A stretch of DNA of 64,000 bases from Methanoculleus caldifontis (GCF_032842345.1 NZ_WBKO01000002.1:516208-580207); one strand, 5' to 3'; shown: positions 3,407-58,833, counted from the first letter of the stretch. Numbers and translations: made by a program. Notes: generated from the sequence alone by a model not told the origin.

Positions 3407-4053
3407 ATGCTCTCCCGTAGATACTCCCGGAGTTGATGAAGGTTCGCCACGACCCCCTCCACCCCCGGCCGGCCGGCAAAGCGATCCGGGTCGCCGGGCG
3501 GGATCCTCGCGACGAACCGGACGCCCGTCGCATAGGCCGCCTGCCAGTCGTTCGGGGCGTCGCCGACGAAGAGGGCCTCGCCCGGTGAGGCGCCGGTCTC
3601 GGCCAGGATCTCCCTGATGCACTCGGCCTTCGTCTTCGGCGAGCCGTAGATCCGGACGAAATACTTCGTGAGGTCGCGGCGGCGGGCGATCTCGTGCATC
3701 TCCCCCTCGGGGGTCGCGGATACGATGTAGAGCGGGAGCCGCCGGGAGCAGTCTTCGAGAAGTTCTTCCGCCCCTTCGACGTACGGGACGGTGAGCATGG
3801 CATCGAAGATGAGCCCGACGTACTCGCTCGCGAGCCACTCCTCCTGCTCGGGGGTGAGCGGCTCGTGGAGGATGTTTTCGTAGATGTAACGGTACTTGTC
3901 GTACCGGGACATCCCACCGTTCTCGAGGTGGAAGGCGATGATCTCGTCGAGGTGTTCGGGGGCAAAGGAGAAGACCTTCCGGAACGCGGCGGTCTTTAGG
4001 GGGAGGGATTCGACGACGACGCCGTCGAAGTCGAGGATGAGGGTGGTGAGCAT
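3379..4053 (-). CDS. HAD-superfamily hydrolase (phosphatase-like)
   Basis: A 224-residue soluble phosphohydrolase. Motif I is LILDFDGVVVES at the N-terminus, giving the nucleophilic aspartate. Motif II is IVSATPE, the lysine region is GSPKTKAE, and motif IV is FVGDAPNDWQAA. The cap between motifs I and II is helical, as in phosphoglycolate/beta-phosphoglucomutase-type HADs. The start is uncertain: an ATG at 4068 would add five residues, and neither has a strong Shine-Dalgarno sequence. The 3' end overlaps the cyclase gene by 28 bp. The natural substrate is unknown. Confidence 0.85.
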   Translation of the reverse strand: MLTTLILDFDGVVVESLPLKTAAFRKVFSFAPEHLDEIIAFHLENGGMSRYDKYRYIYENILHEPLTPEQEEWLASEYVGLIFDAMLTVPYVEGAEELLEDCSRRLPLYIVSATPEGEMHEIARRRDLTKYFVRIYGSPKTKAECIREILAETGASPGEALFVGDAPNDWQAAYATGVRFVARIPPGDPDRFAGRPGVEGVVANLHQLREYLRESICSSRSRTP

Positions 4054-4139
4054 AACGAGTACTGACATTGACTGCCGGCTACTAGTACCTGACGGCCGCA
4101 GGAATTGATGGGGGCGGCAGGAACCTCGATGCCTGCCGG

Positions 4140-5273
4140 TCATCCAGATCGGGATGTGCCGTCCAGGCCCCGGTACATCCGCAGGAGGTCCGCCTCCATC
4201 GCGGACCAGTTATACCTTTCAAGAACCGCCCGCCTCCCGTTTGCGCCCATCCTCCGCGCCTCGTCCGGGTGGTCGAAGAGGTAGGCGATTGCGTCGGCGA
4301 TCTCCTCCACGCTCCCCGGATCGACGAGGATGCCGCAGTCCGCCCGGGTAACGATATTACGGATCTCCGGCAGGTCGCTTGCGATGACCGGGAGCCCGAT
4401 AAGCATGTAGTCGAAGAGCTTGTTCGGCAAGCCGATGGAGATGTTGTAGTATGTCGGCTGGAAGACAAGGAGCCCCGCGGTACCCTCGCTCAGCCTCTCG
4501 TACATTGCCCTGTAGGGAAGGAAACCGGTTGAGGTGACGAACCCTTCCCGGCCGGAGCCGCTGATCCGTTCCCTGAGATCTTCCCGGACGTTTCCGACGA
4601 GCGTGAGGGACACATCGGGATAGCGTTCCCGGGCCCGCTCGACGGCCCGAACGCACTCGTCGACCCCATGGAACGACTGCATATTGCCTGCCATGAACAT
4701 GAGGTCCCGGCCGTTCCGGTCCAGGTTATAGGGAACATCAAGGTCGGCGATGGAGTAGTTCGAGAGGATGAGCGGGTCGAACCCCCTCTCCCTGAACCGC
4801 GCCGCAACGCTCTCGCTCACGGCAAACGTGCCCTCGGCCCGGCGGGCCAGGGCAATCTCCACCCGCGAGACGAGCGCGGAAAGCATCCTCTGTCCCGGGG
4901 TGCCGTTACGGATGCCGAGATCGAACGGGATCTCCGAGGGCCAGTGCTCGTGAATGTCGTAGACGAGCCGTTTCCCTTTGAGGTACTTCGCAAGGACCCC
5001 GATGAGGAGAGCGTCGGGCTCATGGCAGTGGTAGACGTCGGCGTCCTCGGCGAGGCATGCCCGGAGAAGCCGGAGAAGCGTGAAGGGGTGGAGGGCGACG
5101 GAGTCCGGCCGTTCTACGGTGACGATGCGGATCCCGTCCGCGACGCTGCTGCCGCTCCTGTCCGAAGGGGCGATGATCGTGACCTCATGCTCCTTTGCAA
5201 GGCTCTTTGCCTCTTTCTGAAATATCCTGCCGTCGCCGGGTCCGTGCGTGGACGTAAGCATGCAGATCTTCAT
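4140..5273 (-). CDS. GT4-family glycosyltransferase
   Basis: A 377-residue retaining glycosyltransferase of the GT-B fold. The N-terminus MKICMLTSTHGPGDGRIFQKEA is a typical start of group 1 transferases acting on nucleotide sugars. The C-terminal half has GLPNKLFDYMLIGLPVIASD, the acceptor/donor region of GT4 enzymes, followed by DCGILVDPG. An in-frame upstream ATG at 5345 exists, but the domain begins at 5273. It is the last gene of a run of three minus-strand transferases, and its start lies just 41 bp before the end of the preceding gene's coding region, so it is probably in the same transcript. Role: assembly of a surface glycan. Confidence 0.88.
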   Translation of the reverse strand: MKICMLTSTHGPGDGRIFQKEAKSLAKEHEVTIIAPSDRSGSSVADGIRIVTVERPDSVALHPFTLLRLLRACLAEDADVYHCHEPDALLIGVLAKYLKGKRLVYDIHEHWPSEIPFDLGIRNGTPGQRMLSALVSRVEIALARRAEGTFAVSESVAARFRERGFDPLILSNYSIADLDVPYNLDRNGRDLMFMAGNMQSFHGVDECVRAVERARERYPDVSLTLVGNVREDLRERISGSGREGFVTSTGFLPYRAMYERLSEGTAGLLVFQPTYYNISIGLPNKLFDYMLIGLPVIASDLPEIRNIVTRADCGILVDPGSVEEIADAIAYLFDHPDEARRMGANGRRAVLERYNWSAMEADLLRMYRGLDGTSRSG

Positions 5274-7662: not shown

Positions 7663-9741
7663 CTACGTGAGGCCGCCCTGCACCCCGGAAACGCCAGCCA
7701 GGCCGACACCGGCATTTGGCGTCTGTACGTTGAAGATCCTCATCCAGCGCCCGAACAGGATCCATCTCCAGACCATTGCGCTGACGGGGTCGTCTCCCGT
7801 GAACATGCGCTCCAGTTTACCAAGGACTTCCTTCGTTAAAATGCCCTTCGAGTCCTGGACGGCCTCTACGAGCAGCCGGCGGAAGATCTCGGGGTCCTCG
7901 TACCGGAGCCAGTGCTCCTCTGCCGTGTAGAAACCCATCTTGTCCATACGCATGCGCACCCTCTCGGGGAGGATGCCCGACATCGCCTCACGCAGTATCC
8001 GCTTGGTCACGCCTTCGTGGATGCGGTACTCCTCAGGGAGACTCATCACGTACTCGACCAGGCGATAGTCCAGGAACGGCACCCTCGACTCGACGGAGTG
8101 AGCCATAGAGTTCCGGTCCTCCCAGTGGAGGAGGCTTGGCAGACTCACCCAGAGCATCTGGTCAAGAGCGATCGACTGTGTGGTCGTGAGGGAAGGCCCG
8201 GAGCGTGCCGCGAAAGACCGCTCTGCTCCCGATGCGGCAGCGTTATACGCGGAGAGCAGACCGGTGTTGAGCCAGGAGGAACCGGCCTGGCCCGACGTGG
8301 CGTAGGGTTTCATGATCTCCCTGACGGAAGAGGGCAGCAGGTAGTATCCCATCATGGAGAGCGACTGAAACTCGGAGAGACCGTGCCTTGACTTGACCGC
8401 CCGGATATCCCGCCAGAGCATCTTCCATTTCATACTGTGGAAGTGGTCCGCGTATCGGCACCCGAAGAACCACTGGTATCCGCAGAGTTGTTCGTCGGCG
8501 CCCTGACCGTCCAGCAGGACCTTCACCCCGTGGTTTGCGGCAAGCTCGAAGACAAGCCACTGGGCGTAGATGCTTGTCGTCTTGAACGGTTCATCCTGGT
8601 ACCAGACGAGCTCATCGAGTTCCTCAAGCAGCTCCTCAAAGGAAGGATACGTGTAATGCGCCTCAATACCCCGTGCGCTGATAACTTCGTCGGCGTATTC
8701 GCGCTCGTCATACTCTTTTACATCCGAGCAGGCAGAGAACGTCTTCTGGAACCCCTCTTTCTGCTCCTCCCGGAGAAGGTCGTTTGCCAGGCAGACGATG
8801 GACGAGGAGTCGAGCCCGCCTGATAGGCAGGAGCCGCCGGGGACGTCCGAACGCAGCCGTAGTCGGACCGAGTCCCGGAGCAGCCGCCCGAACTCCGTCA
8901 CCGCTTCATCAAACGTCCCGGAGAACTGGTGCGGGTCGAGGCGATACCACCGGTAGACCGGGAGAGCAGTATCAATCTCGCCCACCCGGAACTCCGCGGC
9001 CTCACCGCCCCGGAGCTGGTATACCCCGGCAAAGAGCGTCTCGGATGTGTGGTCGAGGAGGTTCGAGACCAGGTAGTCGTAAACCCGCGGCCCGTTCACG
9101 TGGGGGTTCCAGCCGGGAAGGACTGTGAAGGCTTTGATCTCTGAAGCCATCGCGAGGAACCCTTCGGGAGAGAACCAGTAGTAGAGAGGTTTGACCCCAA
9201 AACGGTCACGGGCGACGAAGACCTTCTGTTCTTGAGTATCGTAGATGACGAACGCCCACATGCCGTTGAGGCGGTGGAGGCAGTCGCGGCCCCAGTGTGC
9301 GTATGCGGCAAGGAGAACCTCTGTATCGGTGCTTGAGGCGAACCGGTGTCCGTACGCCTCGAGTTCGAGCCGGAGTTCGCGGTAGTTGTAGATCTCCCCG
9401 TTGTACACGATCCAGTATCGCCGGTCCGGCGAACACATCGGCTGGTGGCCTGCCGGGGTGGGATCGATGATCGAGAGGCGGCGGTGGCCGAGCGCTAACA
9501 CTGCACGTTCGGGGAGACCACCCGGAGTGGGATGTTGCGGGGCATACGCCAGATCGGATCCGTACACCGCAAGAGGCGTGTCTTCACCGCCGAATATCGA
9601 GATCTCCCGAGGGTTTTGCCCGAAAAAAACTGACCCTTCATCGTCAGGCCCACGGTGCCGCAGGATATCGGTCATTACCGTGATATGTCTGAGTTGCTCC
9701 GGCAAACCACCTAACATTACAAGCGCTGCGATCCCGCACAT
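7663..9741 (-). CDS. asnB: Asparagine synthase (glutamine-hydrolysing)
   Basis: A 692-residue two-domain amidotransferase. The N-terminus MCGIAALVM supplies the Ntn nucleophile cysteine at position 2 after Met removal. Class II glutaminase motifs LGHRRLSIID, YNGEIYNY and SSTDTEVLLAAY follow. The synthetase domain has the PP-loop SGGLDSSSIV near residue 308, then DGQGADEQLCGY. It converts aspartate or a related carboxylate to an amide with ATP and glutamine. Such genes are frequent inside polysaccharide clusters, where they may amidate sugar uronates rather than make free asparagine. It stands alone on the minus strand, with a TATA box so close that the transcript is probably leaderless. Confidence 0.93.
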   Translation of the reverse strand: MCGIAALVMLGGLPEQLRHITVMTDILRHRGPDDEGSVFFGQNPREISIFGGEDTPLAVYGSDLAYAPQHPTPGGLPERAVLALGHRRLSIIDPTPAGHQPMCSPDRRYWIVYNGEIYNYRELRLELEAYGHRFASSTDTEVLLAAYAHWGRDCLHRLNGMWAFVIYDTQEQKVFVARDRFGVKPLYYWFSPEGFLAMASEIKAFTVLPGWNPHVNGPRVYDYLVSNLLDHTSETLFAGVYQLRGGEAAEFRVGEIDTALPVYRWYRLDPHQFSGTFDEAVTEFGRLLRDSVRLRLRSDVPGGSCLSGGLDSSSIVCLANDLLREEQKEGFQKTFSACSDVKEYDEREYADEVISARGIEAHYTYPSFEELLEELDELVWYQDEPFKTTSIYAQWLVFELAANHGVKVLLDGQGADEQLCGYQWFFGCRYADHFHSMKWKMLWRDIRAVKSRHGLSEFQSLSMMGYYLLPSSVREIMKPYATSGQAGSSWLNTGLLSAYNAAASGAERSFAARSGPSLTTTQSIALDQMLWVSLPSLLHWEDRNSMAHSVESRVPFLDYRLVEYVMSLPEEYRIHEGVTKRILREAMSGILPERVRMRMDKMGFYTAEEHWLRYEDPEIFRRLLVEAVQDSKGILTKEVLGKLERMFTGDDPVSAMVWRWILFGRWMRIFNVQTPNAGVGLAGVSGVQGGLT

Positions 9742-9789: not shown

Positions 9790-11109
9790 TCACATTCCCA
9801 AAGGTTTATCCCGGAGCACCGATTCTTCCGTGAACTTCGCGCAGGCAAACGACACAAACAGCCTTTCAAGATCCGGCTTGTCTGAAAGACAGAGTGCCTG
9901 TACACCTCCTTTATCCACTATAGCACGGACAAGCGCTGAAACACGCTCTTCTGCCATCCCCGCACCCTGAAGATAGGTGATTGCCCGGGGGTCGGCAACC
10001 CAGTGCTCCGGGACATCGCCATCGATCAGGCGGAGGTAACGCTCCGCCACCCGCACCGGATTCCACTGCGTTTGGACGAAGTCTCGTGCCCGCCTGCCAA
10101 CCTCCGCTCGATAGCCGGCATCGGTGACGAGCGGTTCGAGGGCGTCTTCTATCTCGGCCGGGTAGCAGTAGATAGCAGGCGGGATCACGTCAGCGGCATA
10201 ATCATCCCAGATATAGCGCGCATAATAGCCGCCGACAACTGCCGGTTTCCCGTACCAGGCGGCTTCGGTCGCAAACACCGCCATTGGGGTGTCCGAGTAG
10301 AGTTGATCGACGACGATGTCGCACCGTTGCAGTTCGTCAAGAACAACCGCATGCGGTTTTCCGGTAATCTCAAAGTACTCGATCGGGTAGCCCTTTGCCT
10401 GTAATGAACGGATGGCATCACGGATCGCCGGCGTCCCCTTGGCGTCAGGATCAGACGGGGAGTGCAGGATCCGAACAATCCCGTTTCGCATGCGAGAATC
10501 GTTCTCTTCTACCGAAGCACGGGCAAACGGGATACCGATGTTTAGCCCCTTCACAAACTGCCGTGCCTGCAGGTGGGCTGCTGCAGGGTGATGGACCGTA
10601 ACGTCCGCAAACCGCTCAATCCATCGGATCTTCCGCTTCTGCATGCGGGTCATACGCATACATCGACGCGGATCATCGATATCGGCGGATTTGCAGAGAG
10701 CTCCATCGATGTATGGCGGGCGGCCATCGCTCCCGAAGAAGATGTAGATAACGCGTTTTCCGAGAAGGCGGAGGAGGGGGAGATCGAGGTAGCCAAGAAA
10801 CGTCGAATTGTAGCCCAGAATGAAGACATCGAAGCGAATAATCGCCCAAACAAACACAGGCAAATTCAGGGCATAGAAGACAGCATACCACAGGTACTTT
10901 AACAGAGTGCGGCCCTGCTGCGCCCGCTTCCAGAGACTTTTTTGCCAAGCGACAAGGCAGATCGGGACATCATCGCCTGCATATCCAAATACATGACCTT
11001 TCTGGTTGATGAATGTGCAGTCGAGCCCCAACTCCTGAAACCCAGTCTTCAGATTGGCATTGTAGCCCGCGATCTCGACAAGTCCGATGAGTATTCTTCG
11101 ACGGTCCAT
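9790..11109 (-). CDS. Predicted glycosyltransferase (divergent GT-B type)
   Basis: A 439-residue protein beginning MDRRRILIGLVEIAGYNANL, a Rossmann-type N-terminus. A hydrophobic stretch near residues 75-110 (YAVFYALNLPVFVWAIIRFDVFI) suggests membrane association. The C-terminal half has ILHSPSDPDAKGTPAIRDAI, CDIVVDQLYSDTPMAVFATEAAWYGKPAVV (read as separate pieces), resembling the donor-binding half of group 1 transferases. An alternative ATG at 11184 fits better with a transcript starting near 11187, so the start is open. The product is less canonical than the other transferases here, and its donor is unknown. Confidence 0.65.
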   Translation of the reverse strand: MDRRRILIGLVEIAGYNANLKTGFQELGLDCTFINQKGHVFGYAGDDVPICLVAWQKSLWKRAQQGRTLLKYLWYAVFYALNLPVFVWAIIRFDVFILGYNSTFLGYLDLPLLRLLGKRVIYIFFGSDGRPPYIDGALCKSADIDDPRRCMRMTRMQKRKIRWIERFADVTVHHPAAAHLQARQFVKGLNIGIPFARASVEENDSRMRNGIVRILHSPSDPDAKGTPAIRDAIRSLQAKGYPIEYFEITGKPHAVVLDELQRCDIVVDQLYSDTPMAVFATEAAWYGKPAVVGGYYARYIWDDYAADVIPPAIYCYPAEIEDALEPLVTDAGYRAEVGRRARDFVQTQWNPVRVAERYLRLIDGDVPEHWVADPRAITYLQGAGMAEERVSALVRAIVDKGGVQALCLSDKPDLERLFVSFACAKFTEESVLRDKPLGM

Positions 11110-11210
11110 GATGCCTACAACAATATCGCCATATTTGCTGAAATAGGATTCCCATTCGGGCGGCAGCGAATCCGTACCCCGCATTGAAAACAGGGATGAC
11201 ACGGGTAAAA

Positions 11211-11223
11211 CAGTATTTATCAG
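11211..11223. promoter_or_regulatory. Shared TATA element of two divergent genes
   Basis: CAGTATTTATCAG is nearly symmetric and reads as a TATA box in both directions. On the plus strand it sits about 40 bp before the amidohydrolase GTG; on the minus strand it lies upstream of the transferase starts at 11184 and 11109. The two units therefore may be alternately transcribed from one element. Confidence 0.5.
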
Positions 11224-11256
11224 TACACACTTCAAATCATTGGAGAGGAGGAGCCA

Positions 11257-12015
11257 GTGGAGATCATAGACTGCCATGCGCACGTAACTGCATCGGGACA
11301 ATGGTTTGACACCCCATACGAAGCATCAATAGAGAATCTAGAAGAGGCGATGGCCCGCTCAGGAATCGCACGGGCGGTCCTGATCCCGCTCGGCCACGCA
11401 TCGATAGAAGACGTCCGATTCTGCCTTGATCTGGCAAAAAAACAGCCAGAGAAGTTCGCGGTAGTACCCCAGATAAATGTAGCAGAACTCTCTCTCCTGA
11501 CAGAATACAAGGACGTGGTTGCCGGACTTAAAGTTCATCCGTCCCTTCAGCAGGTCGATCCCGCTTCGCCGGAGGTCCAGGAGATCCTGGATGCAGCGTC
11601 TGGAATGGGAAAGCCCGTCGTCTTTGACACCTTCATGCAGAGTACAACAATCCCCATACGGCTTCTCGACCCGAAGGTCTTTGACGAACTGGCAAAGAAC
11701 CGCCGCGATATCACGTTTGTCCTTGCCCACTCCTGCTGGCCCCACCTTCTTGATGCCTACATTATTGCGAAGGCAAACAAGAACGTCTATCTCGATCTCT
11801 CGTACTTCGGTAAGGCGGCAGATAACACGTATCTGCTTCATGACTTCTGCCACCTGCTCGAAAAACTGGACCAGAAGGCGATCTTCGGAACGGACTTCCC
11901 GGAAGTCGATGTAGCCGCATACACCGCTCTCTGGCAGAGGTATCTGCATCACCTCCCGGAAGATAAGCAGAAAAGAATCTTTTCCGACAATGCTCGCGAG
12001 GTGTTCCGTCTGTGA
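11257..12015 (+). CDS. Amidohydrolase-family (TIM-barrel) hydrolase or decarboxylase
   Basis: A 252-residue member of the amidohydrolase 2 family (PF04909). The N-terminal metal motif is MEIIDCHAHV, later candidate ligands are LKVHPSLQQ, VLAHSCWPH and FGTDFPEVD, the last giving the conserved aspartate. The family includes decarboxylases and lactonases acting on small carboxylates. The start is a GTG preceded by GGAGAGGAGGAG. It is the first gene of a plus-strand set with a methyltransferase (overlap 4 bp), an RraA-like protein and an ATP-grasp ligase. The substrate is not predictable. Confidence 0.8.
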   Translation: MEIIDCHAHVTASGQWFDTPYEASIENLEEAMARSGIARAVLIPLGHASIEDVRFCLDLAKKQPEKFAVVPQINVAELSLLTEYKDVVAGLKVHPSLQQVDPASPEVQEILDAASGMGKPVVFDTFMQSTTIPIRLLDPKVFDELAKNRRDITFVLAHSCWPHLLDAYIIAKANKNVYLDLSYFGKAADNTYLLHDFCHLLEKLDQKAIFGTDFPEVDVAAYTALWQRYLHHLPEDKQKRIFSDNAREVFRL

Positions 12016-12656
12016 ATGCAGAAGATATCAAGATCACCCGGCAACGATATAGCGAACGACACAGGACATTCGGCTACAGCCCCCAGACACTAGGCTGGGG
12101 CAAACATGGTAGGCAAGCACTGCGGTTCTCGGTTCTGACTGCAGTCGGCAACCTACAGGGGAAATCGATACTTGATGTCGGGTGCGGATTCGGGGACCTT
12201 TACGATTACCTCACGGCACAGGGGTGGACTGGCCACTACGTCGGTATCGATCTGGTACCAGATCTCGTGGAGGAAGGACGGAAACGGTTTCCCGATGCAG
12301 AACTGCTCGTTGGGGACTTCGAAGAGCAAACCTTCACCGGACGCTTTGATTACGTTGTTGCCTCGGGAATATTTAATTTCCTGCTCACACAGGAGGACAA
12401 CTGGGCATATATCATGCGGACGCTGGAGAAGATGCTTGCCCTTGCACAATCAGCGGTTGCAGTCGACTTCATGACCACCTGGGTAGACTTCCAGAACCCG
12501 ATCGCATTCCATACCGATCCCTGCGTGCTCATCCAGAACATCCGGAGCCTGACCCGGCGGTTCACCCTCAGACAGGACTACATGCCGTACGAGTATGCAC
12601 TCTATCTCTACCATGACACCCCCATCAACCACGATAACACTTTCCCGCCGATATAA
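12012..12656 (+). CDS. SAM-dependent methyltransferase
   Basis: A 214-residue class I methyltransferase. Motif I is SILDVGCGFGDLYDYL around residues 52-67; motif II is GIDLVPDLVEEG with the ribose-binding acidic residue; motif IV is RFDYVVASGIFNF. The start is a GTG that overlaps the amidohydrolase stop (GTGA), so the two are translationally coupled. The remaining sequence has no recognisable substrate-binding domain. It may modify a small molecule or sugar produced by the cassette. Confidence 0.85.
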   Translation: MNAEDIKITRQRYSERHRTFGYSPQTLGWGKHGRQALRFSVLTAVGNLQGKSILDVGCGFGDLYDYLTAQGWTGHYVGIDLVPDLVEEGRKRFPDAELLVGDFEEQTFTGRFDYVVASGIFNFLLTQEDNWAYIMRTLEKMLALAQSAVAVDFMTTWVDFQNPIAFHTDPCVLIQNIRSLTRRFTLRQDYMPYEYALYLYHDTPINHDNTFPPI

Positions 12657-12676
12657 ATTGGTAAATTATTAATTTC
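12649..12676 (+). promoter_or_regulatory. AT-rich candidate promoter for the RraA-like gene
   Basis: Overlapping the end of the methyltransferase gene, CGATATAAATTGG is followed by a second A/T-rich block. The first is a good archaeal TATA match about 90 bp upstream of the next start codon, so an internal promoter in the cassette is possible. Confidence 0.4.
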
Positions 12677-12740
12677 AAAGCCGCTTGGGAGTTCAGAAAA
12701 GCCCATTATCCGTAGTGTTCAACACTCTATCACCAGGTTG

Positions 12741-13409
12741 ATGCCGATGACCACACCAGATACCTATACCGATCAGATTATCAGCAAGATCAAGCGGAAC
12801 CGGATTTCTTCGACAGAAGTTGCCGACTGCCTCGGTAAAACCGGAAATGTTCCGGGTGTATTGCCGTTAAACTACGGGCATTTTTGCGTTGGTCAGGTCC
12901 GATGGACATATGCACTGAACGAAAGCAACTGGGAGTTCCACCGGCAGATAACCGATGTCGATGAAGGGGAAATTCTTTTTGTAGAGCCCTTTAATTGCAG
13001 TGACCGGGCAATTTTCGGCAGTTTGGTTTCAAAGTACCTTATCCTGTACCAACAGGCCGCAGGTATTGTAGTGCAGGGGTACCTTCGGGACATCCCGCAC
13101 CTGCGGAAAGAAAACTGGCCAATCTGGTGCTTCGGGGGCACACCCATCGGATGCTTCAACCGCAAAAACGAGACTGATCTCGACCCCGCCCTGATCCATG
13201 AGAGATGCGAACGCTACAACGGAGCTATAGCGGTGTGCGATGACAGTGGCGTGATAATAATTCCAAAAGATCACATTAACCAGGAATTCCTGGAAAAACT
13301 CGACTGGATCGAGGAGCAGGAGGACATCTGGTTTGACTGTATTGATCGGCTTAAGTGGAATACTTACGATACGGTCTGTCTTAAAAAATACCAGGAGCGG
13401 AAGCAATGA
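12741..13409 (+). CDS. RraA / HMG-aldolase-like family protein
   Basis: A 222-residue protein resembling the RraA/dimethylmenaquinone methyltransferase family, many members of which are metal-dependent 4-hydroxy-4-methyl-2-oxoglutarate aldolases or oxaloacetate decarboxylases. The family core is visible as GSLVSKYLILYQQAAGIVVQ, then GYLRDIPHLRKENWPIW, which matches the G-x20-RD region, and GAIAVCDDSGVIIIPKD. The usual glutamate after RD is replaced by histidine, so catalysis may differ. The ATG at 12747 is an alternative start. It overlaps the following ATP-grasp gene by 4 bp. Confidence 0.7.
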   Translation: MPMTTPDTYTDQIISKIKRNRISSTEVADCLGKTGNVPGVLPLNYGHFCVGQVRWTYALNESNWEFHRQITDVDEGEILFVEPFNCSDRAIFGSLVSKYLILYQQAAGIVVQGYLRDIPHLRKENWPIWCFGGTPIGCFNRKNETDLDPALIHERCERYNGAIAVCDDSGVIIIPKDHINQEFLEKLDWIEEQEDIWFDCIDRLKWNTYDTVCLKKYQERKQ

Positions 13410-14593
13410 AAACGATCGTGGTTCTGAGTGGAGGTCAGTATTCAAAACCGGTCTTTTGCACGCTCAAGGATGCAGGTTTTACTACTGTTTGCGTCGACCG
13501 CGACCCGCACGCTCCCTGTGCCGCACTCGCAGATGCATTTTACCCGGTCGATATTACGGACCGTGAGGGGGTGTGTACCGTCGCACGCAGCAATCACGTC
13601 GACGGGATTATGGCGATCAACGATTTCGGCACCCGGACGGCTTCATATGTGGCGGAAGAACTGGGTCTGGTCGGCCTCCCCATGGCAACCGTTGACGCAG
13701 CGAACGACAAGGGACGCATGCGGGATGTCTGGCGCAGGCACGGGCTTTCGCAACCGAAATACAGGGTGTTTGCGACCTCAAACGAATTAACAGAAGCGGC
13801 AGAGCAGATTGGGTTCCCATGCGTCGTCAAACCAACCGAGAGCGGGGGTGGTGGACGTGGGGTATCGGTGCTTAAAACGCCTGATGATATCGAGTGGGCA
13901 TACCGGTTTGCCCTGCCGTACGTGAGGAATAGTCGCTTCATCGTGGAAGAATACATGGAGGGTATCGAGATGACTATCGAGTCATTCTCGGAAAACGGAG
14001 AGGTCACCATCCTGGCGATGAGCGACAAAGTCAAACCCAATTTGCGGACGCGGGTCGCCACAAGCCTGAATTATCCGGCGGCCATTCCCGAAGAAACCCA
14101 GGATCGGGTTAGGGGGCTTGTCACGGCGGCAGTGCGGGCAATCGGTGTTCGGACAGGCATGGCGCATACGGAGGTCATTGTGACCCAAGATGGCCCGAAA
14201 CTGGTCGAACTGGGGGCCAGAGGGGGCGGCGGCCACATATTCCACACAATCATCAAGGCCGTGTCCGGGTTCAACGCGCCCGTACAGACAGCACGTATCC
14301 TCACCGGCATGCCGGTATCGATGCCGGCATTGACAAACAACGGCGCAGTCTACCGCTTCTTCACCCCACCCCGCGGTATCCTCAAAGAGGTCCACAACCT
14401 GGAGGCAGCAGCACGCCTTGAAGGCGTTCTTGACGTCGGGCTGACCAAGGGAATCGGGGACCTGGTGGGAGACTTTGAAAATTCGCTCCAAAGAACCGGC
14501 TTCCTTGTAACATTGGGCCAAAATCGAGAGGCAGCAATCGTGGCAGCCGACCGCGCCGAATCGCTGGTCAAATTTATCGTCGAACCCTGTTGA
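13406..14593 (+). CDS. ATP-grasp carboxylate-amine ligase
   Basis: A 395-residue ATP-grasp enzyme. The N-terminal preATP-grasp fold begins MKTIVVLSGGQYSKPV. The ATP-grasp region has GFPCVVKPTESGGGGRGVS near residue 140 and IVEEYMEGIEMTIES, with metal ligands in AHTEVIV and KLVELGARGGGGH. Such enzymes join a carboxylate to an amine or thiol via an acyl phosphate, as in carbamoyl-phosphate-like, PurK-like or peptide ligases. The start overlaps the RraA-like stop by 4 bp. Together with the three upstream genes this suggests a dedicated small-molecule pathway whose product could decorate the cell-surface glycan. Confidence 0.85.
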   Translation: MKTIVVLSGGQYSKPVFCTLKDAGFTTVCVDRDPHAPCAALADAFYPVDITDREGVCTVARSNHVDGIMAINDFGTRTASYVAEELGLVGLPMATVDAANDKGRMRDVWRRHGLSQPKYRVFATSNELTEAAEQIGFPCVVKPTESGGGGRGVSVLKTPDDIEWAYRFALPYVRNSRFIVEEYMEGIEMTIESFSENGEVTILAMSDKVKPNLRTRVATSLNYPAAIPEETQDRVRGLVTAAVRAIGVRTGMAHTEVIVTQDGPKLVELGARGGGGHIFHTIIKAVSGFNAPVQTARILTGMPVSMPALTNNGAVYRFFTPPRGILKEVHNLEAAARLEGVLDVGLTKGIGDLVGDFENSLQRTGFLVTLGQNREAAIVAADRAESLVKFIVEPC

Positions 14594-14656
14594 TACCCCT
14601 GACGGCTCGTGTGAAATGCGGACACAGCAGGGGCCCACTAAACGCATTGAGAGACG

Positions 14657-14677
14657 AAATATATACGGATAAATACC
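14657..14677 (+). promoter_or_regulatory. TATA region for the acyltransferase gene
   Basis: AAATATATACGG is followed at once by GGATAAATACC. The second element lies about 30 bp before the ATG at 14703, which would give a leaderless transcript; no Shine-Dalgarno sequence is visible at that start. Confidence 0.5.
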
Positions 14678-14702
14678 TAATCTTCCAAATAAGTATTATT
14701 TC

Positions 14703-15887
14703 ATGCTCTCTTTCGCGTTACAAAGACCCGGTGGTTTCAAAATCCATGAGAGGGCATCATTTTTCTTAAACTGCTTGCGGATCAGTGCAGCTGAACTGGT
14801 GCTCATCGGCCATATTTTCTTCTGGTTCGGGATCTCGGAAGCAGCCATCCAGATGGCCAGTTTCGGGGTTGTCATCTTCTTCATTCTCTCCGGCCTGCTG
14901 ATATCGAACTCGGTCTTTTCAAAACTTCATTTACAGGGATATTCTTTTTCAGCATACTTCATCGACAGATTTGCACGTATCTACTCCGGGCTACTGCCGG
15001 TGCTACTGCTCATACTAATTTTCGATCTTACGCATCTTACTCTGTTTCCCGAACATTATCGATCCTTTGATTGCATCTTCGGGTACCCGATCGCGATCCC
15101 GTTCTACCATGACTTTCGGGTCGAGAACTTCGTCGGCTCGCTGCTCATGCTGCAACATATCCCACTTCCACAGTTTGATATAGGGTTCGGGTTCGGTTCC
15201 GGGCGCTCACTCTGGTCCCTGGGACTTGAATGGTGGCTGTACCTCTCGTTCGGATGGACGGTTATCGGCTATCCGTGGCTCAGGAACAAAAAATGGCTTT
15301 ATCTGACGATTTTAGGCATTTTATGGACTATTCCAGCCGCATACTTGATCTTTGCCCCGGTATTGCGAAATCTTGTTATCACCTGGTATAGCGGCGTGCT
15401 CATTACCATACTTCTGGCGATGACCAACTCCGCATCCAAGAAACCGGTCTTTATCGGCCTTATTGTCGCACTATCCCTTTGGGTGGCACATTTACTTTTG
15501 GTGACGCAGGACCCCTACGATCTGGCCGCGGATCTGCTTACAGCAGCAGCGGTGCTTTGCATCCTTATTGTTCTGCGAAACGATAGGGCCATAAGGAGCA
15601 CAAAGGTCCATTCAGCGGTACAGTTCATGGCCGACTATTCCTACACATTGTATCTTATTCATATGCCGATCATCATTTTCGTACATGCGCTCCTCGCGGG
15701 TGTACCGGAATATATCGTTATTACGTCAGCATTCCTCGCTTCAAATGCATTCTCTGCATTCGTCGCGTATTACACCGAAATGCGCCATAAAGACCTTGCC
15801 CGATGGCTAAAGGCTCGGATGTTAAAGACAGGAGGATATCCGCAACGGGGACACCTCTCGCCGCAAACCGCCGACTCCGGCGACTAG
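14703..15887 (+). CDS. Acyltransferase-3 family membrane protein (OafA/YrhL-like)
   Basis: A 394-residue integral membrane protein with about ten hydrophobic segments. The N-terminal region has ISAAELVLIGHIFF, a variant of the acyltransferase-3 histidine motif, and a later R-x10-H-like region, FIDRFARIYSGLLPVLLL. These proteins transfer acetyl or other acyl groups to sugars on the membrane, commonly in O-antigen or exopolysaccharide. The C-terminal tail is polar. It lies between the small-molecule cassette and the convergent sugar-nucleotide operon. Confidence 0.8.
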   Translation: MLSFALQRPGGFKIHERASFFLNCLRISAAELVLIGHIFFWFGISEAAIQMASFGVVIFFILSGLLISNSVFSKLHLQGYSFSAYFIDRFARIYSGLLPVLLLILIFDLTHLTLFPEHYRSFDCIFGYPIAIPFYHDFRVENFVGSLLMLQHIPLPQFDIGFGFGSGRSLWSLGLEWWLYLSFGWTVIGYPWLRNKKWLYLTILGILWTIPAAYLIFAPVLRNLVITWYSGVLITILLAMTNSASKKPVFIGLIVALSLWVAHLLLVTQDPYDLAADLLTAAAVLCILIVLRNDRAIRSTKVHSAVQFMADYSYTLYLIHMPIIIFVHALLAGVPEYIVITSAFLASNAFSAFVAYYTEMRHKDLARWLKARMLKTGGYPQRGHLSPQTADSGD

Positions 15888-15928
15888 CAGTTCGCTGTGC
15901 TGCTTTACGGCAGTGGAGATTAAAAAGA

Positions 15929-16906
15929 TTATTGATCGGGGTTTTTATTGAAATAGGATACGTACCAGTCGATCGTCCGGGCAAGCCCTTCATCAAAGTC
16001 GATCTTTACTTTAAAACCGATCATATCCTGCGCCAGGAAGACGTTCGCGATGTGACGCCGAACGTCGCCGGGACGCTCCGGCTGGTAGACAATGTTCTTC
16101 TTGCACCCCATGTATCGCGCGATGAACCCAATGATGTACTCAATCGAGACCTCTTTTCCACTGGCGACGTTTAAAACCTTGCTCCTGGTCTGCGGCGTGT
16201 TATAGATATCAATGGCCGCCTGTGCGGTATCGGTGACATACAGATAGTCACGAGTCTGCTGACCATCACCATAGATGATCGGCGCTTCACCGCCGAGAAT
16301 GCGCTTGATTGTAAGCGGAATAACGCCCGCATAACTCCGCTCGTTCTGCCGTGGACCGTAATTATTGAACGGGCGAATGATGGCTGCCTCGATCCCGAAT
16401 GTTCGACAATAGGAACAGATCATCAGATCGGCAGCGGCTTTGCTCGCAGCATACGGAGTCGTGCCGTTTAACGGGTGTTTCTCATCCATCGGTGCGTAAA
16501 TGGAAGATCCGTATGCTTCTGATGACGAGAAGTGAATCAGGGTTTTAAATACGTCGTGTCGGGCAAGCTCGGCCATGCAGAGAGCAAGATCGGTGTTGTG
16601 CCGAAACGTCCACACAGGATTTTCTAGGCATGCAGGAAGCGGGATCACGGCAAGATCAAAAACGACATCAATCCCTTCGGCCTCCATGAGCGTCTTCATC
16701 GCGTTATAATCCGAGGAGTCCTGGTGGTAGATCTTCAGACTCGGGTCGAGTTTTTGAGCGTCCGCGAGGTTTTCATCTTTGCCGAGATAGAGGTTATCGA
16801 CGACCACCAGATTCTCCGGTTCTTCCCGGACAAGCGCATCCACGAGGTGGCTCCCGATAAATCCGGCTCCGCCGGTGATAAGTATCGATCTGTTCTTAAG
16901 GCTCAT
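15929..16906 (-). CDS. NAD-dependent nucleotide-sugar epimerase/dehydratase (extended SDR)
   Basis: A 325-residue extended SDR. The NAD(P)-binding motif ILITGGAGFIGSHLVDAL is at the N-terminus. The active-site lysine pair is TTPYAASKAAADLM, preceded by IHFSSSEAYG, and IRPFNNYGPRQ and DGQQTRDYLYV are typical of UDP-sugar epimerases/dehydratases. Distinction between 4-epimerase and 4,6-dehydratase is not secure from sequence alone. It is the last gene of a five-gene minus-strand operon and its ATG overlaps the aminotransferase stop by one base (TAATG). Confidence 0.88.
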   Translation of the reverse strand: MSLKNRSILITGGAGFIGSHLVDALVREEPENLVVVDNLYLGKDENLADAQKLDPSLKIYHQDSSDYNAMKTLMEAEGIDVVFDLAVIPLPACLENPVWTFRHNTDLALCMAELARHDVFKTLIHFSSSEAYGSSIYAPMDEKHPLNGTTPYAASKAAADLMICSYCRTFGIEAAIIRPFNNYGPRQNERSYAGVIPLTIKRILGGEAPIIYGDGQQTRDYLYVTDTAQAAIDIYNTPQTRSKVLNVASGKEVSIEYIIGFIARYMGCKKNIVYQPERPGDVRRHIANVFLAQDMIGFKVKIDFDEGLARTIDWYVSYFNKNPDQ

Positions 16907-18027
16907 TAAAGTGCTCCAAGGATCCGTTCGAGTATCTGCGCCACGGCGTCGATCTCTTCATAACGCAGGTTCACATATAGCGGCAGTGCGATCGCACGGC
17001 AATAGATATCCAGCGATCGGCTGCATCGTTCCTGGGACCGGTACACAGGCTGGATATGAGATGCGTACGTCCCAATCTGGGTTTGAATCCCCTCATTTAT
17101 TAACGTTTCAATAAGCCAGTCCCGATCAATCCCCGGGTCGACGGTAGCGACATAACTCTGGTAGACGGGGCTCACACTCGGATCGATGTAGGGTTTGGTG
17201 ATGCCAGCAATGTCGTCGAGATGCGTATCCCAGATCTGGGCAAGTTCCCGTCGCCGCTCGATGAACGTGTCCAAACGCCTCATCTGGGCGACGCCCACCG
17301 CCGCCGTAATGTCGCTCATCTTGTAGTTGTATCCTACATCGGTGAATCTGGGAATTACCAGCCGGTCACTCTGCTCGCGGTCCCACGCGGCCGTCATGCC
17401 AAAGACTGCAAGATGCCGGGCCTTCGCGGCGATGTCGTCGCGGTCTGTCACGAGCATTCCGCCTTCGCCGGTGGTGATCCCTTTCCGGGCGTGGAAGGAG
17501 AAGCATCCGACATCACCCATCGTCCCGGCGCATCTGCCGCGATACCGGGCGCCGAGCGCACAGGCGGCATCCTCGACGACGGCAAGGTTATGGTCGTTTG
17601 CGATCTGCAGGATTGCATCCATCGCCGCGGGCTGTCCGAAGGTATGAACCGGGATGATTGCCCGGGTCTTTGAGGTGATCTTCTCCTCAATCAGGCCGGG
17701 ATCGATGTTGTAGGTTCTCGGGTCGATATCGACGAAAACCGGCCGTGCTCCGCAATACAGCACGGCATGACCTGTTGCCGGGAACGTATAATCCGCAACG
17801 AGCACTTCGTCACCGGGGCCGATGTCAAGGGCAAGAAGCGCGAGGTGAAGCGCTGCAGTACAATTCGTCACGGCAACGGCATGCCGGACCCCGAGGTACC
17901 CGGCAACCATTCCCTCGAATTCCTTTACTTTCGGTCCCTGTGCAACCCAGCCCGAGTCGAGCACCTTCTTGATCTCATCGAGTTCTTCCTGGTCGAAATA
18001 CGGTCTTGTCAGGGGTATTTTATCCAT
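16906..18027 (-). CDS. DegT/DnrJ/EryC1 family sugar aminotransferase
   Basis: A 373-residue PLP-dependent aminotransferase acting on keto sugar nucleotides. It begins MDKIPLTRPYFDQEELDEI; characteristic elements are VAVTNCTAALHLAL, VEDAACALGARYRG and SFHARKGITTGEGGML, which carries the PLP-binding lysine. In-frame upstream ATGs exist at 18042 and 18090, but GGAGC is properly spaced for 18027. The start overlaps the wecB-like stop by 8 bp. In combination with the neighbouring oxidoreductase it could install a 3-amino group; with the SDR it could act at C4. Confidence 0.9.
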   Translation of the reverse strand: MDKIPLTRPYFDQEELDEIKKVLDSGWVAQGPKVKEFEGMVAGYLGVRHAVAVTNCTAALHLALLALDIGPGDEVLVADYTFPATGHAVLYCGARPVFVDIDPRTYNIDPGLIEEKITSKTRAIIPVHTFGQPAAMDAILQIANDHNLAVVEDAACALGARYRGRCAGTMGDVGCFSFHARKGITTGEGGMLVTDRDDIAAKARHLAVFGMTAAWDREQSDRLVIPRFTDVGYNYKMSDITAAVGVAQMRRLDTFIERRRELAQIWDTHLDDIAGITKPYIDPSVSPVYQSYVATVDPGIDRDWLIETLINEGIQTQIGTYASHIQPVYRSQERCSRSLDIYCRAIALPLYVNLRYEEIDAVAQILERILGAL

Positions 18028-19099
18028 AGTAAGCTGCTCCATAGGAGGACAGATATCTCGCAATCTCTTCGCTTGCATCCCCATCCCCAAAGATGCAGCG
18101 CTGCTTTAAGGACGGTGCGAATTCTCTGATGGACCTGACGATCCTCTCCCGCTCCGCCCCCACAAGCACGTTCCACCCGGCCTCGACCATCTCGACCCAC
18201 TCGGTGTTCTCCCGAAGGGTGATGCAGGGGACGCCGAGCATGTAGGCCTCCTTCTGGACGCCGCCGGAGTCGGTGAGGATCTTCGTCGCATGCGCCATCA
18301 GGTGGAGCATGTCGAGATAACCGAGCGGCTCGATTATCCGGATGTTCTCCGGCATCGCCGCGAGGAGACCGTATTTGCCGAGGTAGTTCCGCGTCCGGGG
18401 GTGGACCGGGAAGACGACCGGCATCCCGGCCTCACCGAGGGCGCCGATGATGGCGGCCATATTGTCACGATCATCGGTGTTCGAGGGCCGGTGGACGGTG
18501 ACGGCGAGGTACTCCCCGGGCTCAACACCGACGTCCTCAAGAATATGAGAGCGCTCCTCCGCGACCGCACGATTGTGGTTCATCGCATCGAGCATCACGT
18601 CCCCGACGAGGTGAACGCCCTCCATGATCCCTTCGGCCGCGAGATTCCTGACCGCCGTCTCCGTCGGGCAGAAGAGGAGGTCCGATGCGTGATCCGTAAG
18701 CACCCGGTTGACCTCCTCGGGCATCCGGAAGTCGAAACTCCGGAGCCCCGCCTCGACATGCGCCACCGGGATGTGGAGTTTGGCCGCCGCAAGCGCACCC
18801 GCAAGTGTCGAGTTCGTGTCGCCGTAGACGAGGACCATGTCAGGCTCTTCCGCCCGGAGGACATCCTCGATCGCTCCGAGCATCGCCCCGGTCTGGTGCC
18901 CGTGGGTCCCTGAGCCGATGCCGAGGTTGTAGTCGGGCTTCGGGATTGCAAGATCCTCGAAGAAGACCTCCGACATCCCGTGGTCGTAATGCTGGCCGGT
19001 ATGAACGAGGATCTCTTCGTGCTCCTCCCTTAGTTCCCGCGAGACGGGAGCGCACTTGATGAACTGCGGGCGAGCGCCGACGATCGATACGATCTTCAT
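18020..19099 (-). CDS. wecB: UDP-N-acetylglucosamine 2-epimerase
   Basis: A 359-residue non-hydrolysing 2-epimerase of the GT-B fold. Canonical landmarks are GARPQFIKCAPVSREL, LVHTGQHYDHGMSEVFF, GDTNSTLAGALAA, AHVEAGLRSFD, TVHRPSNTDD and LTDSGGVQKEAYMLGVP. It interconverts UDP-GlcNAc and UDP-ManNAc, or the 2,3-diacetamido uronate equivalents when acting as WbpI. Upstream by six bases is the UDP-sugar dehydrogenase gene and downstream, overlapping, the DegT aminotransferase, so it is part of one transcript. Confidence 0.92.
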   Translation of the reverse strand: MKIVSIVGARPQFIKCAPVSRELREEHEEILVHTGQHYDHGMSEVFFEDLAIPKPDYNLGIGSGTHGHQTGAMLGAIEDVLRAEEPDMVLVYGDTNSTLAGALAAAKLHIPVAHVEAGLRSFDFRMPEEVNRVLTDHASDLLFCPTETAVRNLAAEGIMEGVHLVGDVMLDAMNHNRAVAEERSHILEDVGVEPGEYLAVTVHRPSNTDDRDNMAAIIGALGEAGMPVVFPVHPRTRNYLGKYGLLAAMPENIRIIEPLGYLDMLHLMAHATKILTDSGGVQKEAYMLGVPCITLRENTEWVEMVEAGWNVLVGAERERIVRSIREFAPSLKQRCIFGDGDASEEIARYLSSYGAAYYG

Positions 19100-19104
19100 G
19101 GTAC

Positions 19105-20535
19105 TTACCGGATCGGATGGCTGTTTTTGTCGCCCCGGCCGATACCCTTGTAGACGAAACCCACGCGGATGAACGCATCCGGGTCGACGACATTCCTGCC
19201 GTCGACGATCACCGGGTGCTCCGCTCCCGAGAGCTCCTTTGCCCGCGCCGGGTCAAGGGAGGCGTAGTGGTGATGAGCCGTGAAGACGACGACGACGTCC
19301 GCCCCCACGAGGGTCGCGTCCAGGTCGTGCGAGACCTCGATACCCGGATAGTCGTTCACGAACGGATCGTGGACCCTGACCTCCGCGCCCGCGTCCTCCA
19401 TCGCCGCGAGATAAGGTTCCGCCGGGGTGTTCCGGGTATCGTCGGAGTTCTGGATGAACGCCCAGCCGAGGAGCGCGACCCTTGCGCCCTCAGGGGACTT
19501 CCCAGCCCGTTTGAGCCCCTCGACGGTCAGGTGAACCATGTGCTCGGGCATGAACTCGTTGATCTTCCGCGCGACCCCGAAGATTGACCCGCCCCCGTGC
19601 GGGTACCAGAGATCGCCGCCAAGGACCTGCGCACCCCGCTCGAGGTGCCAGGAGTCCTTCGTAAGGCAATGGCCCCCGACCCCGGCGCCCGGCCAGAGGA
19701 TGGCACGGGTGATCCCCTCGCCCTTGAGGGAGTCGATCCCGGTCCGGACGTCATAGACGTTGACGCCCATCGCCTCGCAGTGCAGCGCCAGCTGGTTCGC
19801 GGCGGCGATCTGGAGGTCGCGGAAGGCGTTCTCGGCGGTCTTCGTCACCTCGGCCGCGGTCGCGGTCATCGGGATGATCTTTCCCGTCGTGAGGACCGGC
19901 CGGTAGAGCTCGATCGCCCGCGCCGTCGAGACCTCGTCGATCCCGCCGACGATCCGGTCGTGCTCGCGGATGTTCCTGAGCAGCCGCCCGACCATCACCC
20001 GCTCGGGGGCGTGCGCGAGGCAGAAGTCCTCCCCCGCGACGAGCCCCGACTCCTCCTCCAGGATCTCGCGGGCCATGCGCTCGGTCGTGCCGGGAGTGAC
20101 GGTCGACTCGAGCACCACGAGCGTGCCTGCCGTCAGGTGCTTCCCCACCGCCCGGAGCCCCTCGATCAGGGCCGAGAAGTCGGGGATGAGGTCCTTTGGG
20201 TCCGCAAAGGGGGTCTGGATCGCGAGCGTTACCGCGTCGCACCCCGCGACCTCCGAGAAGTCCGACGTGCACCGGAACTTCCCGGCACCGACGACCCTCT
20301 CCAGGAGCTCCTCGAGCCCCGGCTCCTCGCCCTTGAGCGGGGATTCGCCCCGGTTGAGCATATTGATCTTGTAGCCGGAAGAGGCAGAGGCCCGCTGGAA
20401 CCCGATGACTGACTCGAATTCGGGTGCGTCCGCAAAGAGCACCGCGGCGGGGATGCCGACGTAGCCCATCCCGAAGACACCGATCTTCCTGATCGGGCCC
20501 CTGGCGTCGATGATCGATTGTAACTTTTTGCTCAT
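19105..20535 (-). CDS. wecC: UDP-N-acetyl-sugar 6-dehydrogenase (WecC/WbpA-like)
   Basis: A 476-residue UDP-glucose/GDP-mannose dehydrogenase family protein. The N-terminal Rossmann motif is KIGVFGMGYVGIPAAVLFA, later come ESTVTPGTTERMA, AENAFRDLQIAAANQLA and the catalytic cysteine in GAGVGGHCLTKDSWHL, with a C-terminal domain containing LLGWAFIQNSDDTRN. It oxidises C6 of a UDP-HexNAc to the uronate with two NAD+. I chose the ATG at 20535; an upstream start at 20559 would overlap the oxidoreductase gene. At 476 residues it is longer than typical WecC proteins of about 430. Confidence 0.9.
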   Translation of the reverse strand: MSKKLQSIIDARGPIRKIGVFGMGYVGIPAAVLFADAPEFESVIGFQRASASSGYKINMLNRGESPLKGEEPGLEELLERVVGAGKFRCTSDFSEVAGCDAVTLAIQTPFADPKDLIPDFSALIEGLRAVGKHLTAGTLVVLESTVTPGTTERMAREILEEESGLVAGEDFCLAHAPERVMVGRLLRNIREHDRIVGGIDEVSTARAIELYRPVLTTGKIIPMTATAAEVTKTAENAFRDLQIAAANQLALHCEAMGVNVYDVRTGIDSLKGEGITRAILWPGAGVGGHCLTKDSWHLERGAQVLGGDLWYPHGGGSIFGVARKINEFMPEHMVHLTVEGLKRAGKSPEGARVALLGWAFIQNSDDTRNTPAEPYLAAMEDAGAEVRVHDPFVNDYPGIEVSHDLDATLVGADVVVVFTAHHHYASLDPARAKELSGAEHPVIVDGRNVVDPDAFIRVGFVYKGIGRGDKNSHPIR

Positions 20536-20548
20536 GAAAAAACCGTCC

Positions 20549-21463
20549 TTATGCCGCAAAACACCGTGCGACGTCCTCGCAGATCTCCATATTCAGCAGC
20601 GCCTGCGCGGGGCTGACCGGGAACTCCCGTCCCCGGGCGGCGCAATCGAGGAACGTCGAGAGTTCGAGTTTCAGGGGCTCCTGCTTGTTCACGAGCACCT
20701 TCTCGATGATGTTCTCCTGCACGTAACGCTCGTTCTCGACCGCATACTGCCCGGGCTTTCTGTGGATGTAAATCTCCTGAGCCATGAAGTCCCCCTCGAC
20801 GGTGAACTCCTCCTCCTCGATGTAGATCATACGGATCTTCTTTGAGGACTTCCTGCTTGCCGAGAGGTAAACCGGGGTCCCTCCAAAGGAGAAGAGGGCG
20901 CTGCATACGTCCTGGTTGCCGCTGCCGGCAAGCCTGTAGGCTCCTTCGGGCAGGAGGACATTACGCATGATATCCACGTCGTGGATCATCAGGTCCTCCA
21001 CGACCGAGGAACCGCTCACCCGCGAGGAAGCCGGGTTGTGCCGTTTCATCTCGATATAGAGCGGGTTTCTGATGATCTTCTTGATCTCAGCGACGATCGG
21101 GTTGAACCGCTCGATGTGCCCGACGCCGGCAACCAGGCCTTCCGGGATCTTCTCGAGAAGCTGCCTGCTCTCCTCCGCGGTCGCGCATATGGGCTTCTCA
21201 ACGAGCAGCGGTACCCCGGCATCGATCACCTGCTCTGCAACCCCGAAGTGGTAAGGCGTCGGGACGCAGACGCTCACCGCGTCCACACTGTTGAGCAGGT
21301 CCTCTACGGTCGCCGAGGCCGTTGCCTCGAAGGTGCCGGCAAGGTCGCGGGCCGCCTTCTGGTTGAGGTCGTACAGGTAGAGCGAGTCCACCGCTTTCAA
21401 TTCCGAATAGACACGGGCATGATTCCTGCCCATCATTCCGACACCGATTACCCCTGCGTCCAA
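20549..21463 (-). CDS. Gfo/Idh/MocA oxidoreductase, WbpB/GnnA-like (UDP-sugar 3-dehydrogenase)
   Basis: A 304-residue NAD-dependent oxidoreductase. The nucleotide-binding motif GVIGVGMMGRNHARVY is at the very N-terminus, then VCVPTPYHFGVA, PLLVEKPIC with the conserved EKP lysine, and GHIERFNPIV plus ARGREFPVSPAQAL, features shared with UDP-GlcNAc(A) 3-dehydrogenases. I place the start at TTG 21463, which has GGTGAG just upstream and a TATA element at 21506-21516; an in-frame start at 21526 would lie inside that element. It leads the five-gene sugar-nucleotide operon. Confidence 0.85.
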   Translation of the reverse strand: MDAGVIGVGMMGRNHARVYSELKAVDSLYLYDLNQKAARDLAGTFEATASATVEDLLNSVDAVSVCVPTPYHFGVAEQVIDAGVPLLVEKPICATAEESRQLLEKIPEGLVAGVGHIERFNPIVAEIKKIIRNPLYIEMKRHNPASSRVSGSSVVEDLMIHDVDIMRNVLLPEGAYRLAGSGNQDVCSALFSFGGTPVYLSASRKSSKKIRMIYIEEEEFTVEGDFMAQEIYIHRKPGQYAVENERYVQENIIEKVLVNKQEPLKLELSTFLDCAARGREFPVSPAQALLNMEICEDVARCFAA

Positions 21464-21505
21464 GATCTCACCGCCGGTAGAATACGTGCGTTCTCCTATA
21501 AGAGT

Positions 21506-21516
21506 GATGATATACG
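21506..21516 (-). promoter_or_regulatory. TATA box of the sugar-nucleotide operon
   Basis: The minus strand reads CGTATATCATC. Transcription should start near 21486, leaving a leader of about 20 nt before the TTG at 21463, which supports that start over the one at 21526. Confidence 0.5.
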
Positions 21517-21517
21517 T

Positions 21518-21600
21518 TGGCACCACTCCGGTATGACGTTATCGTGATTGGTGCAGGATCGGGAGGATCTCCCCGCCGAACCGTGGCCGCTCCTCCGGCC
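21518..21600 (+). pseudogene. Remnant of a dinucleotide-binding flavoprotein N-terminus
   Basis: The plus strand here reads LRYDVIVIGAGSGGS followed by nonsense-like sequence. This is the classic start of an FAD/NAD(P)-binding oxidoreductase such as geranylgeranyl reductase, with the beta strand and GxGxxG loop intact, yet it stops resembling that family after about 15 residues and runs in frame into the flippase ORF. I read it as the leftover 5' end of a deleted gene, not as part of the flippase. Confidence 0.5.
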
Positions 21601-56473: not shown

Positions 56474-56588
56474 GACTATCATCCAGCCCCTTATTCCAGT
56501 TCAGAAGGCCGTACAGGATACACGCAAGCGTAAGACCAATCGCAAGCACGTATGCAACCCAGATAGAGGGATCGGTAATTCCGAGCAT
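56463..56588 (-). CDS. Symporter small accessory membrane protein
   Basis: A 41-residue protein starting MLGITDPSIWVAYVLAIGLT and continuing LACILYGLLNWNKG, a single transmembrane helix with a short tail. This pattern, with LxYGLxNWNKG after the helix, matches the small accessory protein family that travels with SSF symporters in archaea and bacteria. GGGAGG lies eight bases upstream of the ATG. The stop lies inside the symporter gene, so the two are translationally coupled. Confidence 0.85.
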   Translation of the reverse strand: MLGITDPSIWVAYVLAIGLTLACILYGLLNWNKGLDDSHGS

Positions 56589-58783: not shown

Positions 58784-58833
58784 ATACCTTATGATGTGGG
58801 TTGTCCGCGGTAAAAAAGATGGCGCCCGGATTC

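Follow-up and report, generated by a model that had tools for sequence, protein, structure and literature searches.

A candidate N-acylation module for surface amino sugars in Methanoculleus caldifontis and unrelated bacteria

Described routes to N-acylated 4-amino-4,6-dideoxy sugars include those of the WecD-, VioB- and PglD-type acetyltransferases and that of anthrose. In protocatechuate 4,5-cleavage, aldolases for 4-hydroxy-4-methyl-2-oxoglutarate and 4-carboxy-4-hydroxy-2-oxoadipate (HMG/CHA aldolases) and hydrolases of the 2-pyrone-4,6-dicarboxylate type work on the same branched keto acids, and dipeptides or similar compounds are frequent products of L-amino acid ligase (LAL)-type ATP-grasp enzymes. 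A 64,000-nucleotide stretch of Methanoculleus caldifontis DNA (NZ_WBKO01000002.1:516208-580207; hereafter the window) contains four adjacent genes, at 11257-14593, whose products resemble the aldolase, the hydrolase and the ligase, together with a methyltransferase. With moderate confidence, we take the four to be a horizontally mobile module for the synthesis of an unusual N-acyl group and its attachment to a surface amino sugar. The general role, in which an acid is made and then joined to the sugar as an amide, is likely.

Serotypes of microbes are defined in part by unusual acyl groups on their surface sugars. The groups reviewed include 2,4-dihydroxy-3,3,4-trimethylpyroglutamoyl, 3-hydroxy-2,3-dimethyl-5-oxoprolyl and 3-hydroxy-3-methyl-5-oxoprolyl, the first of which sits on viosamine, a 4-amino-4,6-dideoxy sugar (PMC10609480). 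For several such groups, including methylated 5-oxoprolyl, no genes were found in the open papers searched; the open literature searched yielded no relevant paper on the Treponema flagellin acyl group, and the open-licence papers searched gave no description of this module as a unit.

A block of four genes and its bacterial relatives

The four genes lie on the plus strand. The first (AH, 11257-12015) encodes a 252-residue TIM-barrel enzyme of the Amidohydro_2 family (Pfam score 72 bits against a curated cut-off of 26.4), a candidate lactonase, cyclase or hydratase for the acid precursor. The second (MT, 12012-12656) encodes a generic class I S-adenosylmethionine-dependent methyltransferase of 214 residues (Methyltransf_25, 49.5 against 27), which would methylate the acid. 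The third (12738-13409) encodes a 223-residue RraA-like protein (RraA-like, 66 against 24.5), the marker of the module, and the fourth (ATPg, 13406-14593) a 395-residue ATP-grasp carboxylate-amine ligase (LAL_C2, PF18603, 65.7 against 29.4; ATP-grasp_4, PF13535, 58.2 against 27), proposed to link the acid to the amino sugar. All four proteins score above the cut-offs. AH and MT overlap by 4 bp, as do RraA and ATPg, and an AT-rich spacer of about 81 bp separates MT from RraA. Four coupled plus-strand genes had been described here in an earlier note made from the sequence alone, and their frames, overlaps and families were all confirmed.

That note proposed looking for the same block in other archaea and in bacteria, and held that a lack of synteny elsewhere would count against it. 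Synteny is present in bacteria. Among 295 genomes of the archaeal phylum, profile searches found the RraA subfamily in the window genome only (0 of the 294 others). A protein search of 199 genomes of the class gave only RraA matches of 17-27% identity, which lay in long open frames. Such matches in related methanogens were rejected as orthologues, given this low identity and frames of mostly about 430-480 residues, as expected for fused hexulose-phosphate synthase/RraA proteins. ATPg is single in the window genome, where its four further matches are ATP-grasp relatives of 19-28% identity.

A scan across bacterial and archaeal genomes yielded 16 loci whose RraA is 55-69% identical in its best segment; the carriers belong to Bacteroidetes, Sphingomonadales, Desulforhabdus, Magnetominusculus, Myxococcales, Gastranaerophilales, Paenibacillus, Thermincola, Ruminococcus and Planctomycetaceae. 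Six samples of surrounding classes and phyla, three of which added none, brought five more (L059-L062 and L067). Carriers of the RraA subfamily make up about 1% or fewer of the sampled genomes, and the window protein is 44-69% identical to the 21 bacterial ones. By profile search, 20 of the 21 bacterial loci have ATPg no more than 7 kb from RraA, 13 have AH at up to 6 kb, and seven have an MT homologue, of 29-45% identity, at up to 8 kb. All four genes occur together in six loci: L039, L042, L067, the near-identical L061 and L062, and L068, which is the extended L034 locus. L061, L062 and L067 also served as an out-of-sample check, having been picked by RraA alone; profiles of AH, MT and ATPg built without them found every partner.

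Because the same four families co-locate in unrelated bacteria, the grouping exceeds chance. The order of the genes is ATPg-AH-MT-RraA in L042 and L067, aminotransferase-ATPg-AH-RraA-MT in L039, and RraA-GT2-MT-ATPg-aminotransferase-AH in L061 and L062, and this shuffling suggests functional selection rather than inherited order. Nearly all module loci are glycan loci with amino-sugar genes beside the module, the exception being L059. Plasmid protein searches found no close relatives of RraA or AH and ATPg matches of at most about 33% identity, three inspected capsule or glycan loci on plasmids had no adjoining RraA, and no module relatives were found on viral contigs. The block is real, conserved across phyla and made of known families, and has probably spread horizontally. 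Judged by sequence comparison, its kin are found in bacteria and it is no trait of archaea in general; since none of the 294 other sampled genomes of the phylum has it, the methanogen is likely to have acquired it from bacteria.

Catalytic resemblances and a proposed pathway

Structural modelling, which the earlier note had recommended, gave an aldolase-type fold for RraA and a 2-pyrone-4,6-dicarboxylate hydrolase-type fold for AH. The AlphaFold model of RraA (predicted local distance difference test score, pLDDT, 93.5) has the alpha-beta-beta-alpha fold of the RraA family, and its best match is HMG/CHA aldolase 3noj (Foldseek E 1.8e-13; TM 0.70/0.67). The pair Arg117-Asp118 is invariant in 16 of 16 aligned RraA sequences. 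In the HMG/CHA aldolase of Pseudomonas putida it aligns to Arg123, reported to be essential for enolate stabilisation, and Asp124, reported to be a metal ligand (PMC5065237). The subfamily as a whole is strongly conserved in sequence. The model and the alignment point to a class II pyruvate aldolase, which is the activity proposed here for RraA.

The AlphaFold model of AH (pLDDT 92.5) has as its best PDB fold match 4i6k, a probable 2-pyrone-4,6-dicarboxylate hydrolase (Foldseek), and His158 and Asp213 are invariant across the AH family. RraA and AH are thus likened to two enzymes of one branched keto-acid pathway, and the pair points to an acid of that kind. Their pairwise identities do not correlate, and sequence-level coevolution of the two is not claimed.

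ATPg falls in the L-amino acid ligase group, with 3vot and BacD among its best solved relatives, and its tree differs from that of RraA. The window-type lineage of ATPg adjoins PseC/LegC-like aminotransferases in seven of seven cases, and the other main lineage adjoins WecE- or DesI-like enzymes in six of seven (WecE above its curated cut-off in L039, L040, L042 and L068; DesI-like best matches in L041 and L044; L060 is the mismatch). The association of ligase lineage with aminotransferase class gives a Fisher p of 0.005, uncorrected for relatedness and leaving out L037 and L038, which form an ATPg group of their own. L033 combines a Bacteroidetes-type RraA with another ATPg lineage, as would be expected of an exchangeable ligase. 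The association, which is not proof, would follow if the acid-making enzymes were common to the loci and each ligase suited the amino sugar that accepts the acid.

We infer the substrates, the order of steps and the product from these resemblances. RraA would first condense pyruvate with a second pyruvate or a different keto acid to a branched 4-hydroxy-2-oxo acid, which MT would methylate. AH would then open, close or rearrange a lactone or lactam form of the acid. Finally, ATPg would activate the carboxylate with ATP and join it through an amide bond to the 4-amino group of a sugar made by a neighbouring dehydratase and aminotransferase.

Several observations weigh against this pathway. The functions given to its members are predictions from sequence and models. 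MT is not near RraA in 14 of the 21 bacterial loci, nor AH in eight, so the core is RraA plus ATPg and the acid may differ between loci; a search of 11 genomes with no MT near RraA found no match elsewhere, but it had no positive control. The RraA of L059 (4665-5390), from a Clostridia genome, clearly belongs to the subfamily but stands without any module partner. Within RraA, the position of the aspartate in the GDLL motif of the aldolase is Asp in 13 of 16 sequences but Ser or Ala in the window, L034 and L036 (Ser in the window). AH is poorly conserved, its homologues being only 17-30% identical to the window protein, and the first histidine of the HxH motif present in the window is not conserved among them.

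The surrounding glycan locus and recurrent extra genes

The earlier note had also placed the block inside a surface-glycan locus with AT-richer surroundings, and both statements hold. The locus extends from about 2.7 to 23 kb of the window and contains GT1 glycosyltransferases, an AsnB-type amidotransferase, a 4,6-dehydratase, a DegT aminotransferase, WbpA-, WbpB- and WbpI-like uronic-acid genes (18020-21526) and a flippase; DUF5814, DUF2150 and ThiI genes follow it. GC content at third codon positions (GC3) is 0.58-0.66 for every measured gene within 9790-18090, against 0.76-0.90 for the other measured genes of the window. The first minus-strand gene of this low-GC island, an open reading frame at 9790-11301 (GC3 0.61), is divergent from the block as the note had said, but its identity as a glycosyltransferase is unproven, as it matches no Pfam or NCBIfam model.

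Downstream of the block, the island holds a gene for an Acyl_transf_3 membrane O-acyltransferase (14703-15887, plus strand; Pfam 77.8 bits; GC3 0.58), possibly for a further decoration. It is followed on the minus strand by a 4,6-dehydratase-like gene of the LegB/RmlB class (15929-16906; TIGR01181 202.6 and TIGR04180 196.2 bits, both under their curated cut-offs) and a DegT-family sugar 4-aminotransferase gene of the PseC/LegC class (16906-18090; TIGR03588 307.8 bits, under its curated cut-off). These two are the would-be makers of the acceptor sugar, the dehydratase taking the proposed first step and the aminotransferase supplying the amine. The unit is therefore wider than four genes, because the island holds this pair as well. 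Genes related to the dehydratase occur in many module loci, and genes related to the 4-aminotransferase in most.

Elsewhere in the window, an open reading frame with a putative cyclase domain (PF04199; 2741-3838, minus strand) at the edge of the glycan locus overlaps a HAD-hydrolase frame at 3382-4143, and the gene boundaries there look unsettled. Beyond the locus lies an Aminotransferase V/SepSecS-like enzyme (27313-28491, minus strand), and a second dip in GC content, to 0.56-0.57, spans 56001-59000.

Three further gene types recur with the module. AsnB-type glutamine amidotransferases occur in six loci (window 7663-9741, minus strand; L030 14111-16012; L031 16071-17954; L032 15183-18257; L035 1407-3326; L029 18308-18661, partial at the locus edge). 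They accompany the window-type ATPg, directly follow AH in L031 and L032, and could be the source of an amide in the decoration. A class I/II aminotransferase, for which the nearest models are aspartate aminotransferase and GntC, lies inside the module in seven loci (L031 14240-15355; L032 13354-14469; L039 10327-11484; L041 7733-8449; L060 4833-6299; L061 12982-14109; L062 5314-6444), and none was seen in the window island. PhyH-family oxygenases (L029 3748-4587; L030 6249-7097; L033 9594-10478) possibly provide an optional hydroxylation. Separately, NeuB/PseI-type nonulosonic acid synthase genes in L060 (3820-4833) and L039 (15971-17044) suggest nonulosonic-acid chemistry in some hosts.

The product, alternative readings and known systems

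The suggestion in the earlier note of an acyl or amino-acid-like glycan decoration fits all of these findings, with the amendments that the block is bacterial in its kin and the unit wider than four genes. A broader proposal can be put forward only tentatively: a horizontally mobile pathway in which an RraA-fold aldolase, running towards synthesis, makes branched acids from pyruvate, MT and the pyrone-hydrolase-like enzyme modify them, and an exchangeable ATP-grasp ligase attaches them to nucleotide amino sugars. Such a pathway would provide the genes that are missing for acyl groups of the methylated 5-oxoprolyl type, and would give a biosynthetic role to a family usually annotated as RNase regulator or degradative aldolase. 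The RraA subfamily, as a compact marker gene, would then allow such decorations to be predicted from sequence. An archaeon appears here to have taken up a bacterial kit for decorating sugars.

That the product of this module is itself a methylated 5-oxoprolyl-type group is possible but rather unlikely. By retro-analysis, the trimethylpyroglutamoyl group would formally equal 4-hydroxy-4-methyl-2-oxoglutarate (two pyruvates) with two methyls on C3 and an amide at C5, ring-closed, and that acid is formed when the HMG/CHA aldolase reaction runs backwards (PMC5065237). Aldolase, methyltransferase, amidohydrolase-fold enzyme, amidotransferase and ATP-grasp ligase would suffice, and the AsnB-type enzymes of the window, L029, L030, L031, L032 and L035 and the class I/II aminotransferase that joins the module in several loci are consistent with this. 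However, AsnB genes are common in glycan loci, and many module loci have no MT.

An alternative we regard as improbable is that ATPg couples the carboxyl of a uronic acid to an amino acid, as with threonine on methanogen N-glycans, the other three genes making that amino acid or amine. The relatives of ATPg are L-amino acid ligases, WbpA-, WbpB- and WbpI-like genes are present in the window, and uronic acids bearing amide-linked amino acids have been described (PMC10609480). These window genes lie outside the low-GC island, however, and WbpA-like genes were not noted as recurrent module partners, whereas 4-aminotransferases are recurrent and it is with aminotransferase class that the ATPg lineage goes. 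Still less probable is a free small molecule unrelated to the glycan, its genes merely parked in a variable locus; the dipeptide-like products frequent among LAL-type ATP-grasp enzymes would suit it, but in nearly every bacterium found the module lies in a sugar locus and adjoins sugar aminotransferases, L059 being the sole locus lacking such genes. That the RraA-like protein is a regulator resembling RNase E inhibitors, as its family annotation might suggest, with no pathway common to the four genes, is hardly credible in view of scores far under the cut-offs of the regulator models (NF006875, 28.6 against 136; TIGR01935, 25 against 123.8), the invariant Arg-Asp pair and the conserved co-occurrence of the module genes.

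RraA shares with HMG/CHA aldolase (LigK/ProA; 3noj) its fold, the catalytic pair and, by alignment, the active-site positions His75 and Gly101. It differs in being just 18% identical in structural alignment, in scoring 38 bits on the equivalog model TIGR02798 (cut-off 304.5), in the conserved and unusual C-terminal stretch IEEQEDIW...D of its subfamily, and in sitting in glycan loci rather than in aromatic catabolism. AH has the TIM-barrel fold of 2-pyrone-4,6-dicarboxylate hydrolase (LigI) and the ACMSD superfamily, with 4i6k and 2ffi among its top structural matches, but is 14-21% identical to them and its family does not keep HxH strictly. ATPg has the ATP-grasp and LAL_C2 domains of the L-amino acid ligases BL00235 and BacD, but scores 42 on the BacD model (cut-off 850), and its proposed acceptor is an amino sugar. 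The methylated 5-oxoprolyl O-antigens of V. anguillarum V-123, P. shigelloides O74 and V. cholerae O5, compared here by structure (PMC10609480), have an acid skeleton that could be reached by aldolase, methyltransferase and amide chemistry. Finally, the module resembles the described N-acylation of 4-amino-4,6-dideoxy sugars in its proposed class of product, an N-acyl amino sugar, and in the WecE-type aminotransferase and RmlA/RmlB-like genes beside it, but in place of an acyl-CoA-dependent transferase it has an ATP-grasp ligase and what appear to be dedicated acid-making enzymes.

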